DNA of 64,000 bases from Rhodococcus sp. BP22 (GTDB lineage Bacteria; Actinomycetota; Actinomycetes; Mycobacteriales; Mycobacteriaceae), in NCBI RefSeq assembly GCF_014281965.1, contig NZ_JACFTB010000002.1, positions 186,001-250,000 of the forward strand, in the 5' to 3' direction. The position numbers and the translations under genes were made by a program. Under the pieces are notes generated by a model that was not told where the DNA came from, did not search any database, and saw only the letters and a list, made by a program, of their open reading frames with translations. Below are positions 6,908-14,226 of the stretch, one piece after another (position 1 is the first letter of the stretch; every line of letters starts with the position of its first letter).

Positions 6908-7801
6908 ATGAGTGAAACCGGCACCCGCACAACCGTGGTCAACGAGGGAATGTCACTGGCGGTCTACGAGACAGGTAATCCAAACGGCGAGACCATCGTT
7001 CTCGTCCACGGCTGGCCGGACACGCACGAGATGTGGAGTCACATCGTTCCGCGACTCACCGAGCGCTTCCGCGTCGTCAGCTACGACGCGCGTGGCGCGG
7101 GCGCAAGTACGGTTCCGCGTGAACGCTCCGCCTACCGACTCCGCAATCTGGCCTCGGATTTCTATGCCGTCGTCGACGCAGTCAGCCCGAACGCGCCTGT
7201 CCACGTTCTCGCACACGACTGGGGCGCCGTCACCGTATGGGAAGCAGCCGGCGAACCCCATGCGGTGGATCGAATCCGTTCGTACACTTCCATTTCAGGC
7301 CCGAACCTAGACCATCTCGGCAAGTGGTCGAGGTCGCGGTTGTCCAGGCCGAGCTGGAGCAACGTCAAGCAAGTCCTCGCCCAGACGCGCGCATCCTGGT
7401 ACACCGTCACCTTCCACATACCCGGCCTCTCCACGTTGCGAATTCGACGCCAGTTCGCCAAGGGCTGGCCTGCGTTCTTGCAAGAATTCTCTGGCGTCGA
7501 CCCGTCACTGGTCACCGAGAATCCCACACTGTTCTCCGACGCGACCAACGGAATGAACCTGTATCGAGCGAACCTCGTTCCACGCCTGATGAAACCGCGG
7601 GCCCGATTCATCGACATCCCGGTGCACTTGATCGTCAACACCGAGGACGTCGCGGTGCGGCCCGACCATTACGAAGACACCGGAAAATGGGTGAAGAACC
7701 TGACCCGCAACGATATTCACGCTGGCCATTGGTCACCGATCTCTCATGCTGTCGAGATCGCCGAACTCACCGAGAAGTACATCGATTCTCTGAAGAGCTA
7801 G
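6908..7801 (+). CDS. EphD-like alpha/beta hydrolase (no SDR domain)
   Basis: A 297-residue alpha/beta hydrolase of the epoxide hydrolase branch: HGWPDTHEMW (oxyanion HG), DARGAGAS, and the elbow AHDWGA near residues 101-106, where Asp rather than Ser is the expected nucleophile. LIVNTEDVAVRP and KAGH-like HAGHWSP supply the acid and the His. It resembles the N-terminal half of mycobacterial EphD throughout but ends where EphD continues into a short-chain dehydrogenase domain. ATG 6908 is used; an ATG at 6869 is also possible. It converges with the DUF4185 gene, the stops overlapping by 4 bp. Confidence 0.83.
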   Translation: MSETGTRTTVVNEGMSLAVYETGNPNGETIVLVHGWPDTHEMWSHIVPRLTERFRVVSYDARGAGASTVPRERSAYRLRNLASDFYAVVDAVSPNAPVHVLAHDWGAVTVWEAAGEPHAVDRIRSYTSISGPNLDHLGKWSRSRLSRPSWSNVKQVLAQTRASWYTVTFHIPGLSTLRIRRQFAKGWPAFLQEFSGVDPSLVTENPTLFSDATNGMNLYRANLVPRLMKPRARFIDIPVHLIVNTEDVAVRPDHYEDTGKWVKNLTRNDIHAGHWSPISHAVEIAELTEKYIDSLKS

Positions 7802-9252
7802 TTCGTCAACTCCGCGTGCATCTGAAAGACGTTGTAGTCGGACCACGTCGAGATGTTGAAGTACAGGTCGGTACCGGTGGACCAGGGATGCATGAATCCT
7901 CCGTACAGCTCGGGGTAGTCGGCGACGCTGACCATCGGCGCTCCATCGGACCACGCCCCTTGCGGAGAGTCGGACTCCCGCAGCGTGATAGCCGTTTTCG
8001 CGGTGTCGAGGTAGGTCATCTGCCATCTCTGGCGTGAGTCGTCGTACCGCACCGAGAGCTCCGCTGCCGGGGCCGCCACGATCGTCGACGCTGCGGTATA
8101 CCCTCCGACCGGCGTCCAGTTACCCTCGCTCCAATACTGATACGCGGACTTGTTCAGCACCTGATCCTTCGGGACGCGTGCGACGCCGACGTCGCCGAGT
8201 CGGGTGTTCGGGGTGCCGAACATGTACACGTAGTCGCCCTGCGGGACCATCGACGTCACCTGAAACTTACTGACGCCGAAGATGTTGTCCCACTGTGCGT
8301 ATGGATCCTTCGTCCAGGTGGAGCCGCCGTCGTCCGAGTAAGCGATCCCCCCGTAGTTGGTCCACCAGGTTCCAGGGATGCTGTTCCACGTCCTGATGGA
8401 CATGTAGCTCATGTATTGGCGATCGCCGATCGCGAAGCCGGAGGTAGGAATCGTGGTGATCTCGACGTTGTCGAGCTTGCGACTGCTGAGCAGTTCGGCT
8501 GCGTGACAACGACTGTCCTGCACCATGCTGTCGTAGGTGACCCCGTCGGACAGATCGGTATCGGTGCTGAACGCGAGTACATTGCTGCGCCAGTCCGGTC
8601 CCTGGCCTCCAGGGGGATGGAAGCCTTTGCCGACGGTATCGCCGAACGCCGTCGCTATCTGTCCGGGGGCGCTCTCCCACATCATGCCCAGGTCCGTTCC
8701 GTAGACCTGCCAGCGTTTGTCGGTGCGGTTGATCGATCCCGCCCCTGTCTGTTTGGCAACACGGGTGACGTTGCCGATCTGCGGCATGGGAGGTGCAGGA
8801 GTCCTGACCGCCGGTTCGATGGAAGGCGACGCCGGATCGGGCGGAGGCGGAAGCTGCACTTCGGGTCCGGGAATCGGGATCGGAATCGTGAACGGCTTGA
8901 ACTCGAATCCGATCCGGGGAATGTTCAATTCACTCGAGAGTGTGGTGGGCTCGCGGCTCTCATCGGTGAGGTCCGGACACGGATCCACGCACGGGTCCGC
9001 CGGCAGCGGCTCAGGGTCGATACGTGTCGGGGCCGTCGTCGGTGCTGGATACGGCACGGGTGCGAGTTGCGGAAATGGGATCGGAATCGAGAGATCCTCC
9101 GGGACCAGCGACCCGGTCTCGTTCGTCAGATCGGCCGCGCACGCGCCGGGAGGTACGAGAGGTTCGGCGGCAGCCGGGACGCTGTCCCCGTACACGATCA
9201 TCACGGACCCGAGAACAACAGCGGCGCTCACGACGGCCATTCGCTTCGACAT
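7798..9252 (-). CDS. Secreted DUF4185 domain protein
   Basis: A 484-residue exported protein. Residues 1 to about 28 form a signal peptide ending AAAEP. A Pro/Asp-rich low-complexity stretch follows (about 30-145: repeated PIPFPQLAPVPYPAP-like runs and paired Cys in ADPCVDPCPD). The DUF4185 domain begins near GTDLGMMWES and runs to the end, with GDTVGKGF, a five-bladed beta-propeller-like pattern and many Trp/Tyr. Start ATG 9252 has AAGGGGAG six bases ahead. Relatives are cell-surface proteins of corynebacteria and mycobacteria, some thought to bind or cleave glycans; the function here is unknown. Confidence 0.85.
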   Translation of the reverse strand: MSKRMAVVSAAVVLGSVMIVYGDSVPAAAEPLVPPGACAADLTNETGSLVPEDLSIPIPFPQLAPVPYPAPTTAPTRIDPEPLPADPCVDPCPDLTDESREPTTLSSELNIPRIGFEFKPFTIPIPIPGPEVQLPPPPDPASPSIEPAVRTPAPPMPQIGNVTRVAKQTGAGSINRTDKRWQVYGTDLGMMWESAPGQIATAFGDTVGKGFHPPGGQGPDWRSNVLAFSTDTDLSDGVTYDSMVQDSRCHAAELLSSRKLDNVEITTIPTSGFAIGDRQYMSYMSIRTWNSIPGTWWTNYGGIAYSDDGGSTWTKDPYAQWDNIFGVSKFQVTSMVPQGDYVYMFGTPNTRLGDVGVARVPKDQVLNKSAYQYWSEGNWTPVGGYTAASTIVAAPAAELSVRYDDSRQRWQMTYLDTAKTAITLRESDSPQGAWSDGAPMVSVADYPELYGGFMHPWSTGTDLYFNISTWSDYNVFQMHAELTN

Positions 9253-9290
9253 ATCTCCCCTTCTGCGGATGCACCACCCGTGCCAGCGCA

Positions 9291-10562
9291 TCATGCCAGA
9301 TTTTCGCGCAATGAGCGCGAAGAGTACTCCTTACGAAAGAGATCACGTGCCTGAAGAATTGGTACGACTTCGTCGACGAAGTCGTCGAGACTGTCCGGAT
9401 ACAGCGGTGGCATCAGATTGAATCCGTCGGCAGCTCCTCGTCGCACCCACTCCGAAATCTCGTCGGCGATCGATTCTGGCGTCCCGATCATCGTGGCGTG
9501 CCCTCCACCCGCTGCGAGTGTCCCGAGAAGCTGACGGACAGTCGGGTCATCTTTGGCGATTATCCGCAGGATCGTCTCGTATCGACCGTGCGGCCCGGTG
9601 AACTCCTCGATCGGCGGAAGAGCAGGAACCGGTGCGTCGAGCTCCCAATCGCTGCAGTCCTGCTCCACGAACATCCCCAGTGTGCGCAACGACTGCTCGA
9701 CGGGAAGCAGTGCATCGAGCTCGGCCTTCTTCGCACGGGCCTCGCTCATCGTCGATCCGACATACGTCACCAGACCCGGCATAATTCCGACGGTCGAGCT
9801 GTCTCGTCCGGCAGCATCTATGCGGCGCTTGACATCCGAGTAGTAGGCGGCGCCGGCTTCGGCATCGTAGGCGACGGCGTAGATCGCCTCCGCGTAGCGA
9901 GCCGCGAGATCACGCCCCGGTCCCGACGCGCCTGCCTGAAACAGCACCGGACGTCCCTGCGGAGACCGTGGGACCGTCAATGGGCCGTCCACCCGAAAGT
10001 GCTTGCCCACGTGATCGATGGGGTGCACCTTCGCCGGATCCGCATACATTCCCTCGCGATCCAGTACCAGCGCGCCCTGATCCCAACTGTCCCACAGCGC
10101 GAGGGCAACCTTCACGAATTCCTCTGCACGCTCATACCTTTCGGCTCGTGCTGGAATGTACTCGAATCCATGATTGCGTGCCTCGGCGTCGAACATCGAG
10201 GTCACGACGTTCCATCCTGCGCGACCACCGCTGATGTGATCGAGTGAGGCGAGCAATCGCGCCGCGTGAAACGGCGTGTAGAACGTCGTGGATATGGTGG
10301 TGACCAGGCCGATATGGGTGGTCGCTCCGGCCATCGCCGTCAGCGCCGTGATCGGTTCCAGAAACCAGGTGCCCGCGCCTGCCGGATCACGAACGGAGTG
10401 TCCGTCCGCGAAGAACACGGCATCGAACTTGCCTCGCTCGGCGGTCTGCGCGAGTCCTTGGTAGTAGCTGATATCGCCGAGGTCCTCGACCCTCGAATTC
10501 GGGTGACGCCACGCTGCACTGTGATGTCCACAGCCGTACAGGAATGCGTTGAGGTGCAGCAT
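9291..10562 (-). CDS. NtaA/SnaA/DszA-family FMN-dependent monooxygenase
   Basis: A 423-residue bacterial-luciferase-fold enzyme of the two-component group that takes FMNH2 from a separate reductase. Family features are YCGHHSAAWRHP-like GCGHHSAAWRHPNS near the start, DAVFFADGH, EPITALTAMAGATTHIGL, STTFYTPFHAARLLASLDHISGGRAGWNVVTS and RYERAEEFVKVALALWDSW. Members oxidise nitrilotriacetate, EDTA, dibenzothiophene sulfone, pristinamycin precursors and long-chain or sulfur compounds; the substrate here is not readable. It starts one base after the stop of the SDR gene and so sits in the operon led by the TPP riboswitch, which suggests a thiamine-related substrate. Confidence 0.9.
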   Translation of the reverse strand: MLHLNAFLYGCGHHSAAWRHPNSRVEDLGDISYYQGLAQTAERGKFDAVFFADGHSVRDPAGAGTWFLEPITALTAMAGATTHIGLVTTISTTFYTPFHAARLLASLDHISGGRAGWNVVTSMFDAEARNHGFEYIPARAERYERAEEFVKVALALWDSWDQGALVLDREGMYADPAKVHPIDHVGKHFRVDGPLTVPRSPQGRPVLFQAGASGPGRDLAARYAEAIYAVAYDAEAGAAYYSDVKRRIDAAGRDSSTVGIMPGLVTYVGSTMSEARAKKAELDALLPVEQSLRTLGMFVEQDCSDWELDAPVPALPPIEEFTGPHGRYETILRIIAKDDPTVRQLLGTLAAGGGHATMIGTPESIADEISEWVRRGAADGFNLMPPLYPDSLDDFVDEVVPILQARDLFRKEYSSRSLRENLA

Positions 10563-10563
10563 G

Positions 10564-11334
10564 TCAGTCCTTGACCAAGCCGCCGTCCACGACCAAATTC
10601 TGTCCGGTCACCGACCTCGACCACGGAGATGCGAAGAACAACAGGGCATCTGCGAACTCCTCGGGTGTCACCACTCGCTGCAATGGCGTCGACGCCGCGA
10701 TGAGGTCGAATACCTCTTCAGGCGTCGCAGCGCTTGCATCGGTAGTGCGCAAGAGACCGCCCGAGACCATATTGACCGTAATGCCATCGCCGCCGAGATC
10801 CGCTGCGAGAGTGCGGGTCAGAGACAACAGTGCAGCCTTCGACGCCGTGTAGTCGTGGTACGGCACCACTGGGTTCTGGAACAGATTGGTACCCACGTTG
10901 ATGATTCGGCCGAATCCTGCTTCGCGCATCCCCTTCAGCGCTCGCTGCGTCGTCGTCAGCGCACCACGCACGGTGCCACGGAACTGAGCGTCGAACTCGT
11001 CCCACGTGATCGAGTCTGCCTTGCTGCGCGCGTCCCCGTTGAACGAGAAGTCGGCCAACGCGTTGTTGACCACCGTCGTCACGGAATGCCCGAAGTGCGC
11101 TTCGGCTTCGGTGAACAATGCGTCCACCTGCTCGGCGTCGGTGATGTCGGCTTGGATGGCAACCCCGCCGATCTCCGACGCCAGCGCCTGCGCCGACACT
11201 TTGCTGTTGCGATAGTTCACCACGACGCGAGCGCCCTCTCGCGCGAATGCCCTGGCCACCGCACTGCCCAGACCTCTACCCGCTCCGGTGACGACCACTG
11301 TCTGCTCGTCCAACTTTTTCGACTGGATGTTCAT
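10564..11334 (-). CDS. SDR family oxidoreductase (riboswitch-controlled)
   Basis: A 256-residue classical short-chain dehydrogenase: cofactor loop VTGAGRGLGSA near residues 14-24, an NNA-type motif (VVNNALADF), and YTASK active-site Tyr/Lys. The residue 13 before the Tyr, normally the catalytic Ser, is Thr (NVGTNLF), which is unusual. An Arg and Asn follow the first strand (VVNYRNS), favouring NADP (inference). ATG 11334 is used; the frame extends to 11388, into the expression platform of the riboswitch. First gene of a two-gene operon with the flavin monooxygenase. Confidence 0.88.
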   Translation of the reverse strand: MNIQSKKLDEQTVVVTGAGRGLGSAVARAFAREGARVVVNYRNSKVSAQALASEIGGVAIQADITDAEQVDALFTEAEAHFGHSVTTVVNNALADFSFNGDARSKADSITWDEFDAQFRGTVRGALTTTQRALKGMREAGFGRIINVGTNLFQNPVVPYHDYTASKAALLSLTRTLAADLGGDGITVNMVSGGLLRTTDASAATPEEVFDLIAASTPLQRVVTPEEFADALLFFASPWSRSVTGQNLVVDGGLVKD

Positions 11335-11393
11335 CTCAGGCCTTTCGCTCTTCCGGCCGACACCGCGCAGAGCATGCACGTATCCCACGTGCA

Positions 11394-11464
11394 GACATCC
11401 CTACGCTGGTGTTGACCAGATCAGGTTCGACGGGTGTGTTCTCAGCCGTTAGGCACCCCGTGTC
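11394..11464 (-). promoter_or_regulatory. TPP riboswitch (THI element)
   Basis: Read on the minus strand, the element begins GACACGGGGTGCC, continues with GGCTGAGA, ACCCGTCGAACCTGATCTGG, and ends ACACCAGCGTAGGGATGTC. These are the invariant THI-box segments, in order, and the outer GACA/TGTC arms form P1. The core is about 71 nt, with only a minimal P3 arm. It precedes the SDR/monooxygenase operon by 60 nt, where a hairpin (GCACGT...ACGTGC) and a GCTCT...AGAGC pairing near the ribosome site could act as the expression platform. Thiamine pyrophosphate binding would normally lower expression. Confidence 0.93.
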
Positions 11465-11482
11465 GAAGAGGACTGTACCTCT
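11465..11482 (-). repeat. Small hairpin just upstream of the riboswitch
   Basis: Perfect AAGAGG/CCTCTT stem with a 6-nt loop immediately 5' of P1 of the TPP riboswitch. It probably forms in the nascent leader; no function is claimed. Confidence 0.4.
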
Positions 11483-11581: not shown

Positions 11582-12886
11582 CTAGCGCAGCACCACCCAG
11601 CCGTGGGGTGGAATCCTGGTGGATCCGCCGTCCACCTGTGCGTCGCCGGCCAGTACCTCGCCGGCCACGCGGTACGTCACCTCCTCGTCACCGAGGTTCA
11701 ACGCCACGTGCAACTGCTCGTCACCCGACTGCACGCGGTACAACATCGCGGTATTGGACAGCTCCACCGTCTCGGTCCGCGCCTCGACGAGCCAAGGATG
11801 TCGGCGGCGAAGCCCGATCAGCTCCTGATGCAGATGAAACGTCGGCCTACCGTACGGGGCGAGTCCCTCTCTGCTGCTTGGAAATTCGGGTCGAACCTCG
11901 TCATCACCGCCGACACGTTCCTCTTTCGCGCCACGGAAGCCCTGTTCGTCGCCGTAGTAGATCATCGGCATACCCCCGACCGTGAACAGAACCACGAGCG
12001 CATGCTCGACATGGCGTTCGTCGGTGATGGTGCTGGCGATGCGGGCCACGTCGTGATTGCCGACGAACGTAGCCGGAACGAACGTCTCGAGCCACTCGTT
12101 GTGACGCCCGAGCGCGTGCGACAACTCGAAGAAGTTCCTTTCCGCGATTGCACTCCATGACGCTTTCCACAGCTCGTACTGAGTCACCGAATCGAGTGAG
12201 CTCGCTTTCACGATGGCTGCATAATCACCGTGGATGACCTCCCCGAGGAAGTAGGCATCAGAGAATTTTTGCCGAACCTTCGGAATGACCGCCGCCCAGA
12301 ATCGCGGCGGCACAGCGTATGCCGCGTCGAGACGCCATCCGTCTATACCCCGTTCGAGCCAGTGCGACATGACATCGACGACATACTGCTCGACCTCGGC
12401 GCTGTCATGGTTCAGCGTCACCAGTTCATCGTGGCCCTCGAAATTGCGATGCGTCGGTCTCGCACCGGACCAGTCGAGGTGGAACCACTCGGAATCCGGT
12501 GAATCCGGTCCTGCTTCGAGCGCCTGAACGAACCGCGGAAATGCCTGTGCCACATGGTTGAATACGCCGTCGAGCATCACTCGCAGTCCACGCGAATGGG
12601 CTTGGTGGATCAAGTCGTCGAAGTCCGCTTCGGTGCCCAGACGCGAATCGATGCGAAGGTGATCGATGGTGTCGTATCCGTGGCTTGCGGAGGCGAAGAT
12701 CGGGCCCAGGGCGATTCCCGACGCACCGAGTTCCACGGCGTAGTCGAACCAGTCGACGATGCGGTGAAGTCGATGCTCGCCCTCGAGCGAACCGCCGTCC
12801 CAATCATGGACCGGGGCACCGACGAATCCCAGAGGATAGATGTGCCACCAGATGGCGTGATCGACCCAAGCAGGCTGACTGCTCAT
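11582..12886 (-). CDS. Alpha-amylase family (GH13) glycosyl hydrolase
   Basis: A 434-residue (beta/alpha)8 enzyme acting on alpha-glucosidic bonds. The four GH13 regions are present: DGVFNH (106-111), GWRLDAA with nucleophile Asp188, LGEVIHG with acid/base Glu216, and FVGNHD with Asp279. The C-terminal beta domain is short. No signal peptide is visible, so it is cytosolic, working on storage or imported oligosaccharides. Its ATG overlaps the stop of the upstream FMN oxidase gene by 4 bp (ATGA), a sign of coupled translation between enzymes with no obvious metabolic link. Confidence 0.92.
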   Translation of the reverse strand: MSSQPAWVDHAIWWHIYPLGFVGAPVHDWDGGSLEGEHRLHRIVDWFDYAVELGASGIALGPIFASASHGYDTIDHLRIDSRLGTEADFDDLIHQAHSRGLRVMLDGVFNHVAQAFPRFVQALEAGPDSPDSEWFHLDWSGARPTHRNFEGHDELVTLNHDSAEVEQYVVDVMSHWLERGIDGWRLDAAYAVPPRFWAAVIPKVRQKFSDAYFLGEVIHGDYAAIVKASSLDSVTQYELWKASWSAIAERNFFELSHALGRHNEWLETFVPATFVGNHDVARIASTITDERHVEHALVVLFTVGGMPMIYYGDEQGFRGAKEERVGGDDEVRPEFPSSREGLAPYGRPTFHLHQELIGLRRRHPWLVEARTETVELSNTAMLYRVQSGDEQLHVALNLGDEEVTYRVAGEVLAGDAQVDGGSTRIPPHGWVVLR

Positions 12887-14043
12887 GCCCGGATCACCGA
12901 CTCACGACCGAGCTCGGCAGCCCCGGTATGACCCGACAAGCTGGTGACCAGATCGAATTCAGCGAGAAGGCAACGCAATACATGCGCCACACCGTCCTGT
13001 CCGCCGAGCGCCAACCCGTACAGGAACGGCCGTCCCAGCAGCACCGCATCGGCCCCCAACGCAAGCGCCTTCGCCATGTCGGACCCGGTGCGCACACCGG
13101 AATCGAACAAAACCGTCAGCTGATCACCGACGGCGTCCACGATCTCCGGCAACGCGCTCAACGACGAGAGAGCCCCGTCGATCTGGCGTCCACCATGATT
13201 GGACACCACGATCCCGTCCACACCGTGATCGACTGCTGCTCGCCCGTCGGCAACCGTGCAGATTCCCTTCAATACGATCGGGCCGTCCCACTGCTCACGC
13301 AGGAACGCCAACTGCGACCAGTTCAACCCAGGATTGGGGAACATCTGCGCCCAGTGCATGGCTGCAGCAACAGGATTCGCCTCCACTGATTGATCCAGAC
13401 CCGCCAGAAAAGCCGGGTCGGTCAGATAGTTCTCGATCCCGAGGTTCGCCAGAAACGGCAGATATCCCCGATCGAGATCGGCCGGTCTCCAACCCAGAAG
13501 CGTCGTATCGAGCGTCAGCACCAGCGTCGTGAATCCCGACGCCTTGGCTCTCTCGAGGAAGCTGAGCAGAACGGATTCGTCTGTGGGCCAGTACAGCTGG
13601 TACCACCTCGGGGCGTCGCCACCCGCCTCGGCGATCTGCTCGAACGAATGCGATGCCTGAGTGGAATGAATGTACGGTACCGAAAGCTCGGCGGCTGCCC
13701 GCACGGTCGCAAGCTCACCGTCCGGATGCGCGAGTGTCTGAACACCCACCGGCGCTATCAGCAGCGGCGCGGGCATGGAGGTGCCGAGCACGGTCACCGC
13801 ATGATCTCGCTCCGCTGAACTCCGCAACATGCGCGGCGCGATCCGCCACTCGTCGAACGCATCGCGGTTGGCGCGTGCCGTGGAACCGCTACCTGCGCTG
13901 GCGACGATGTACCCGAGAGCTTCCGGGCTGAGCGTGGCAGCGGCCTGCTCCTCCAACCTGGCCAGGTTCGTGGTGATCTGCGGCCTCTGATCGGTGAACA
14001 TGCCCTGGGCATATATACCGATTTGATGGTCACTGAAGTTCAT
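12883..14043 (-). CDS. FMN-dependent alpha-hydroxy-acid oxidase (lactate 2-monooxygenase-like)
   Basis: A 386-residue member of the glycolate oxidase/lactate monooxygenase family. It matches Mycobacterium smegmatis lactate 2-monooxygenase along its length: PRMLRSSAERD, APLLIAPVGVQTLAH, IHSTQASHS, YQLYWPTDESV, LDTTLLGWRPADL, PIVLKGICT, SNHGGRQIDG with the catalytic His, and DSGVRTGSDMAKALALGADAVLLGRP. Such enzymes oxidise L-2-hydroxy acids using FMN. ATG 14043 is used; the open frame extends to 14190 through the 15-bp tandem repeats, which would encode HALPP repeats and are not counted as protein. It lies first in a two-gene unit with the GH13 enzyme. Confidence 0.87.
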   Translation of the reverse strand: MNFSDHQIGIYAQGMFTDQRPQITTNLARLEEQAAATLSPEALGYIVASAGSGSTARANRDAFDEWRIAPRMLRSSAERDHAVTVLGTSMPAPLLIAPVGVQTLAHPDGELATVRAAAELSVPYIHSTQASHSFEQIAEAGGDAPRWYQLYWPTDESVLLSFLERAKASGFTTLVLTLDTTLLGWRPADLDRGYLPFLANLGIENYLTDPAFLAGLDQSVEANPVAAAMHWAQMFPNPGLNWSQLAFLREQWDGPIVLKGICTVADGRAAVDHGVDGIVVSNHGGRQIDGALSSLSALPEIVDAVGDQLTVLFDSGVRTGSDMAKALALGADAVLLGRPFLYGLALGGQDGVAHVLRCLLAEFDLVTSLSGHTGAAELGRESVIRA

Positions 14044-14113
14044 GGTCACCACCGTAGTGCCGCCGCAGGCCAGATGGCAGGACATCACCGAGCACGTGGT
14101 GCGGAGAGCGCGC

Positions 14114-14158
14114 GGTGGGAGAGCGTGCGGTGGGAGAGCGTGCGGTGGGAGAGCGTGC
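14114..14158. repeat. Three perfect 15-bp tandem repeats
   Basis: GGTGGGAGAGCGTGC is repeated three times head to tail (14114-14128, 14129-14143, 14144-14158), with a degenerate fourth unit at 14099-14113. The last copy runs into the left arm of the 70-bp inverted-repeat element. It lies between two divergent genes. Confidence 0.9.
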
Positions 14159-14226
14159 ACCCTTGTTCGGAACCTCACCCCCTCGATCACGTCATAGCGA
14201 GGGCGACCGGTTTACAAAAAGGGTGC
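14157..14226 (-). repeat. 70-bp inverted-repeat element, copy B
   Basis: The ends are GCACCCTTGTT on the left and AAAAAGGGTGC on the right, inverted repeats extending to 14 nt with one mismatch (14154-14167 and 14216-14229). On the minus strand it opens with GCACCCTTTTTGTAAACCG, identical over 19 bp to the copy at 42181-42250, and both copies are exactly 70 bp with a 40-bp core that differs. It lies in the divergent promoter region between the FMN oxidase and helicase genes. Confidence 0.75.

Follow-up and report, generated by a model that had tools for sequence, protein, structure and literature searches.

The window, by which we mean the whole 64-kb stretch of DNA analysed, carries a TPP riboswitch aptamer followed by two genes, all on the minus strand. 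The aptamer (11381..11470, minus strand) matched RF00059 over model positions 1-105, that is, as a complete aptamer, at 65.7 bits (E 1.2e-10; gathering score 54.3). It is the sole Rfam family that reaches its gathering score in the window, and the same site was recovered in a genome-wide search (G000:C12:197381-197470). The original prediction of a THI element on the minus strand, for which an Infernal search with RF00059 had been suggested, is confirmed by the covariance model; TPP binding and control of expression by the element are predicted. The genome has three TPP sites in total. The second lies before a TENA-family gene accompanied by an NMT1/THI5-family binding protein and a permease, and the third before thiO-thiG with thiE divergent.

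Between the aptamer and the first start codon, the sequence contains a linker (11335..11380, minus strand) with a candidate Shine-Dalgarno sequence, GAAAGG, at 11346-11341. The first gene (10564..11334, minus strand) encodes an SDR of 256 aa. A longer form in the ORF list, with a GTG start at 11388, was rejected because that codon falls inside the aptamer, and we judge the ATG at 11334, preceded by GAAAGG, to be the better start. The protein belongs to NCBIfam PRK08642 ('3-oxoacyl-ACP reductase'; 431.8 bits against a cut-off of 292). It does not score as FabG, for which the best model among the 25 shown (PRK05653.1-3) reached 167.4 against a cut-off of 296, and at the catalytic position it has Thr149 in place of the Ser of FabG. 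This threonine, at Tyr162 minus 13, had been correctly predicted as a replacement of the catalytic serine, but it is not peculiar to the SDR of the window. Judged from an alignment of 123 rows (118 distinct), Thr149 is a family trait and not a damaged site, because Thr occupies the position in 118 rows and Ser in 5, and Tyr162 and Lys166 are kept in all 123.

The SDR stop and the start of the second gene (9291..10562, minus strand) are separated by 1 base, and the two genes are probably co-transcribed. The second gene encodes an LLM-class FMN-dependent monooxygenase of 423 aa (hereafter LLM). Its match to TIGR03860, the NtaA/DmoA family, spans residues 4-421 at 538.7 bits (cut-off 279.7), which bears out the assignment to NtaA/SnaA/DszA-family FMN monooxygenases. 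YtnJ/MoxC is the best-scoring solved relative (318.8 bits, aligned over residues 3-422), and nitrilotriacetate and EDTA monooxygenases and riboflavin lyase are also among the solved relatives; DszA and dimethyl-sulfide monooxygenase belong to the family as well. YtnJ/MoxC and NtaA-type enzymes share the TIGR03860 family with the LLM of the window, but LLMs paired with an SDR stand apart. In a tree drawn without the LLM paralogues of the window's own genus (up to 53% identity), 20 SDR-paired LLMs formed one clade (support 100/100) separate from five other plasmid LLMs at 47-51% identity. No TPP site was found within 4 kb of those five, two of which lie in ABC-transporter operons and three on unannotated records. 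No gene for a flavin-reductase partner adjoins the LLM of the window; dependence on FMNH2, O2 and a reductase is predicted from the family.

Directly after LLM lies a DUF4185 gene (7798-9294, minus strand; 388.9 bits in Pfam). It was rejected as a conserved third gene of the operon, since it follows LLM in only 4 of the 14 LLM-bearing relatives examined (L042, L043, L044 and L050). It is a local neighbour that is possibly co-transcribed in that clade. Upstream of the riboswitch, at 11582-14190 on the minus strand, are an alpha-amylase-family gene and an FMN-dependent dehydrogenase-family gene; inspected by eye, L084, L085 and L087 also have both genes upstream.

Distribution of the locus among actinobacteria

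The genus of the window is probably Rhodococcoides, with R. fascians and R. kyotonense among the named close relatives. The SDR was found in 36 of its 37 genomes (E at most 1e-60), and all 36 SDRs have a TPP aptamer just upstream on the same strand, an association of SDR and riboswitch that greatly exceeds chance expectation. The aptamers of G004 and G026 score 52.9, slightly below the gathering score. The remaining genome, G035, gave no match to the SDR and has just two TPP sites; the SDR riboswitch is absent as well. LLM lies next to the SDR in 30 of the 36 genomes (81% identity or more), and in six (G001, G002, G005, G012, G013 and G017) the SDR stands behind its aptamer without LLM. The count of the pair behind TPP riboswitches that had been called for thus gives an aptamer for every pair of the genus. 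Four SDRs of the genus without LLM (L074, L076, L079 and L099) group with L151 from a sister genus (g10) and not with the LLM-paired SDRs of their own genus, and share with L151 a start that overlaps the aptamer. Transfer or an old paralogue is possible for these four.

Two further genera, g10 and g6, which appear to be Rhodococcus and Corynebacterium, carry the same arrangement. In g10 the SDR occurs in 22 of 28 genomes, with LLM adjacent in all 22 and a TPP site adjacent in 21. In g6 it occurs in 30 of 242 genomes; TPP is adjacent in 25 of the 30 and LLM in 21, once in pieces (L127). The g6 SDRs without an adjacent TPP site are L107, L110, L128, L131 and L133, and in the last three a TPP site lies more than 1 kb off on the opposite strand. 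All six SDR carriers without adjacent TPP in the two genera have ThiC. Pairs without the riboswitch, which had been named as evidence against the original prediction, amount to 1 of the 22 pairs of g10 (L146), and every pair of g6 and of the window's genus keeps it. SDRs without LLM lack the riboswitch more often than SDR-LLM pairs do.

Of 397 genomes sampled across the order, 13 have the SDR (E at most 1e-65), and five of these 13 belong to the window's genus. Five genomes of f14, a family that is probably Pseudonocardiaceae (G265, G336, G347, G351 and G417; all ThiC+), have an SDR adjoined by neither TPP site nor LLM, and this is also the case in four named Saccharopolyspora records, with a weak match 7 kb off in L052 to R1, our own model from 25 TPP sites. 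More distant SDR matches of the named-genome scan (L056-L064 and L066-L073; 23-34% identity) were left out of these counts. In G109, a ThiC+ member of another genus of the family, Rfam at E 0.5 found no aptamer before the SDR, but R1 does find one upstream at 42.1 bits. The 3' half of this aptamer (L101 2519-2634) is split by an insert that carries 16-bp inverted repeats at its termini, like a miniature transposon.

Operon partners of the SDR in other phyla

A protein search of plasmid records gave 38 with the SDR, of which 23 were read. A TPP riboswitch lies upstream on the same strand in 20 of the 23, and no aptamer was found before the SDR in the three Caballeronia records. Sixteen records were scanned with Rfam (13 positive), and seven (L181-L187), none of which contributed sites to R1, with R1 only (25.7-51.3 bits, rough E 8.5e-7 or lower). 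PRK08642 was the best family for all 10 plasmid SDRs scanned, L182 and L179 falling below its cut-off.

Four architectures were found behind these riboswitches. The order TPP-SDR-LLM of the window recurs in two Pseudochrobactrum records, Mesobacillus and one Rhodococcus plasmid, and Exiguobacterium has TPP-SDR alone. In six records (Gemmobacter, Neorhizobium and four Rhizobium, these four unannotated and ordered by tblastn) the SDR follows thiM, thiE and thiD as the fourth gene. This rhizobial thiMED operon has the same riboswitch as the window and in all six records an SDR 61-66% identical to ours, which places an SDR orthologue within the thiamine regulon; the SDR of the window differs in standing apart from thiMED and in its pairing with LLM. 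When 51 SDRs were placed in a tree with two outgroups, those of the thiMED operons formed one clade (support 100/99), and a modestly supported branch (76/82) separated the SDRs of the fourth architecture from the rest.

This fourth architecture, TPP-LuxE-LuxC-SDR, was found in nine records (three Azospirillum, three Pantoea, Priestia, Niallia and Lactiplantibacillus). Six of the nine operons include a nucleobase permease or an NMT1/THI5-type transporter: an ABC transporter with an NMT1/THI5-family binding protein is inside those of Azospirillum and Priestia, and an NCS2 permease inside those of Niallia and Lactiplantibacillus. Neither type occurs in the three Pantoea operons. The Pfam family NMT1/THI5 is broad; binding proteins beside two unrelated LLMs also match it weakly, and the Azospirillum binding protein is nearest to sulfonate binders in NCBIfam, below cut-off. 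In Niallia (L183) two aptamers stand in tandem (1170-1278 and 1357-1466) before thiW, the NCS2 permease, LuxE, LuxC and the SDR. In luminous bacteria LuxE activates a carboxylate, which LuxC then reduces to an aldehyde. The genes found here carry the same Pfam LuxE and LuxC families as that fatty acid reductase, but they stand behind TPP riboswitches, are absent from the window, and in Azospirillum score 66 of 550 and 89 of 750 bits, far under the NCBIfam cut-offs for true LuxE and LuxC. These TPP-controlled cassettes (L179-L187) probably act on a thiamine-precursor acid. The original prediction had given the SDR and monooxygenase no known thiamine role; this needs refinement, as the SDR family occurs in both thiM-thiE-thiD and LuxE-LuxC operons behind TPP riboswitches.

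Direction of control

Known bacterial TPP riboswitches mostly switch genes off at high TPP. In 12 loci (L074, L075, L076, L079, L099, L100 and L151-L156) an in-frame ATG lies 9-11 bases after the conserved AGG of the aptamer, and the aptamer's own GGAGGG or GAAGGG, the sole Shine-Dalgarno-like sequence near the SDR start, is likely the ribosome-binding site. A ribosome-binding site borne by the aptamer fits repression by TPP, with expression at low TPP. The SDR ATG of the window lies 65 bases beyond the conserved AGG. An alternative pairing that would mask the Shine-Dalgarno sequence in the linker was promising in the window but was rejected as a general mechanism across the 70 testable of 85 loci; in folding comparisons, locking the aptamer reduced the accessibility of the Shine-Dalgarno sequence in 33 of the 70, without consistent masking.

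The predicted direction of control bears on whether the pair salvages or breaks down thiamine, its parts or an oxidised product, all of which had been proposed. An oxidative pathway that degrades thiamine or its products for C, N or S, with the riboswitch as an ON switch, would suit a monooxygenase whose solved relatives include nitrilotriacetate and EDTA monooxygenases and riboflavin lyase. This reading seems very doubtful to us, because thiM, thiE, thiD and transporters keep company behind the same riboswitch and the likely ribosome-binding site within the aptamer fits an OFF switch. Of the two proposals, salvage is the best reading given the company of thi genes, and breakdown in the sense of catabolism was set aside. 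Expression at low TPP would also fit enzymes that spare thiamine by bypassing a TPP-dependent reaction when TPP is scarce, touching no thiamine precursor, and in Pseudochrobactrum an acetolactate synthase gene is near the pair, with an opposite-strand gene between. Such bypass enzymes would leave the thiMED-SDR operons and the transporter genes unexplained, and we think this explanation very unlikely.

Candidate substrates and relation to known salvage

We consider it probable, from gene content and riboswitch placement, that the locus is a TPP-repressed operon for salvage of a thiamine precursor, in which the SDR most likely reduces HMP aldehyde and LLM feeds the aldehyde. At low TPP, SDR and LLM would be made. 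Because LuxE- and LuxC-type enzymes make aldehydes from acids, the SDR that follows them most likely reduces a thiamine-precursor aldehyde, and because the SDR adjoins thiD in the thiMED operons, the alcohol formed would most simply be HMP. The proposed reaction of the window's SDR is therefore reduction of an aldehyde, likeliest 4-amino-5-formyl-2-methylpyrimidine (HMP aldehyde), to HMP, which would proceed to thiamine via ThiD and ThiE. LLM replaces LuxE-LuxC in the window, and the simplest reading is that it would provide the same aldehyde, as one of several alternative feeders. Nitrilotriacetate and EDTA monooxygenases hydroxylate a carbon next to N or S. LLM may likewise hydroxylate a carbon next to a heteroatom, candidates being the exocyclic methylene of formylaminopyrimidine, aminomethylpyrimidine or oxidised thiamine, after which the C-N or C-S bond would break and leave the aldehyde for the SDR. 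In other bacteria, LuxE- and LuxC-type enzymes would form it from the acid. Natural breakdown of thiamine yields pyrimidine carboxylic acid and thiazole acetic acid, a statement for which our literature search returned no source.

Which half of thiamine is recovered can be approached through ThiC and ThiG. No ThiC (TIGR00190) was matched in any of the 37 genomes of the window's genus, and 13 of 14 controls were positive; the genome of the window has ThiE, ThiO, ThiD, ThiG and a TENA-family protein. In g6, TPP-SDR is present in 11 of 30 ThiC-/ThiG+ genomes, 12 of 161 with both, none of 12 ThiC+/ThiG- ones and 2 of 39 with neither. The ThiC-/ThiG+ class, chosen post hoc and with kinship ignored, is enriched over the rest (11/30 against 14/212; Fisher p 2.4e-5), and loss of ThiC alone, kinship again ignored, has a weak effect (SDR in 13/69 against 17/173; p 0.08). 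In g10 the SDR shows no association with ThiC loss: 7 of the 22 genomes with the SDR and 3 of the 6 without it have no ThiC. That the operon strictly replaces ThiC, an idea prompted by the absence of ThiC from all 37 genomes, was rejected, since ThiC occurs alongside the SDR in 15 of 22 carriers in g10 and 17 of 30 in g6. On balance the pyrimidine is favoured over the thiazole as the substrate side of the SDR, because the genus is without ThiC, the genome of the window has ThiG, and the ThiC-/ThiG+ genomes of g6 are enriched for TPP-SDR. One thiamine-auxotrophic Rhodococcus ruber has been described (PMC10269752), R. equi is described as auxotrophic via disrupted thiCD (PMC6852188), and a literature search on the thiamine need of R. 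fascians found nothing usable.

Salvage on the thiazole side is a less likely alternative. Here the SDR would reduce 4-methylthiazole-5-acetaldehyde, formed from the acid by the LuxE/LuxC-type enzymes, to hydroxyethylthiazole, and LLM would act on a sulfur-bearing thiamine fragment. The hydroxyethylthiazole kinase gene thiM comes first in the alphaproteobacterial operon, the Niallia operon includes ThiW, a predicted transporter for the thiazole side, and the LLM family holds sulfur-compound enzymes (DszA and dimethyl-sulfide monooxygenase). Against this, the genome of the window has ThiG and ThiO and no ThiC match, the g6 SDR occurs in 0 of 12 ThiC+/ThiG- genomes and in 2 of 51 ThiG- against 28 of 191 ThiG+ genomes, and NCS2 permeases, as nucleobase transporters, suit a pyrimidine better.

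A precedent for recovering the pyrimidine half of thiamine after its degradation is the salvage of base-degraded thiamine by ThiXYZ, YlmB and TenA, the formylaminopyrimidine route of Bacillus. The genome of the window resembles it in its TPP-preceded TENA-family gene with binding protein and permease. That route is hydrolytic, however, whereas the window has a reductase and a predicted O2-using flavin enzyme, with none of the genes of the route adjacent. In a large survey (PMC3766115), the genes under TPP riboswitches are described as serving thiamine biosynthesis and precursor transport; the survey covers Corynebacteriaceae and Mycobacteriaceae, and its main text contains neither 'dehydrogenase' nor 'monooxygenase'. 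Among the titles and abstract openings listed we found no published account of the SDR/LLM system, and supplementary regulon tables may list the genes.

These enzyme types lie beyond those of surveyed TPP regulons, recur in several operon arrangements in three phyla and suggest that oxidised halves of thiamine are recovered by reduction. More speculatively, thiamine salvage may have an unrecognised reductive branch in which the SDR is the shared final step behind interchangeable feeders (O2-dependent cleavage by LLM, acid reduction by LuxE-LuxC, or direct uptake), and in the ThiC-less genus this branch could be the main pyrimidine route, its HMP coming from remnants of oxidised thiamine or even from a precursor other than thiamine. 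If reductive recovery is correct, it would assign a function to the family now named '3-oxoacyl-ACP reductase', with substrates open to assay, and would help explain the supply of pyrimidine in ThiC-less actinobacteria.
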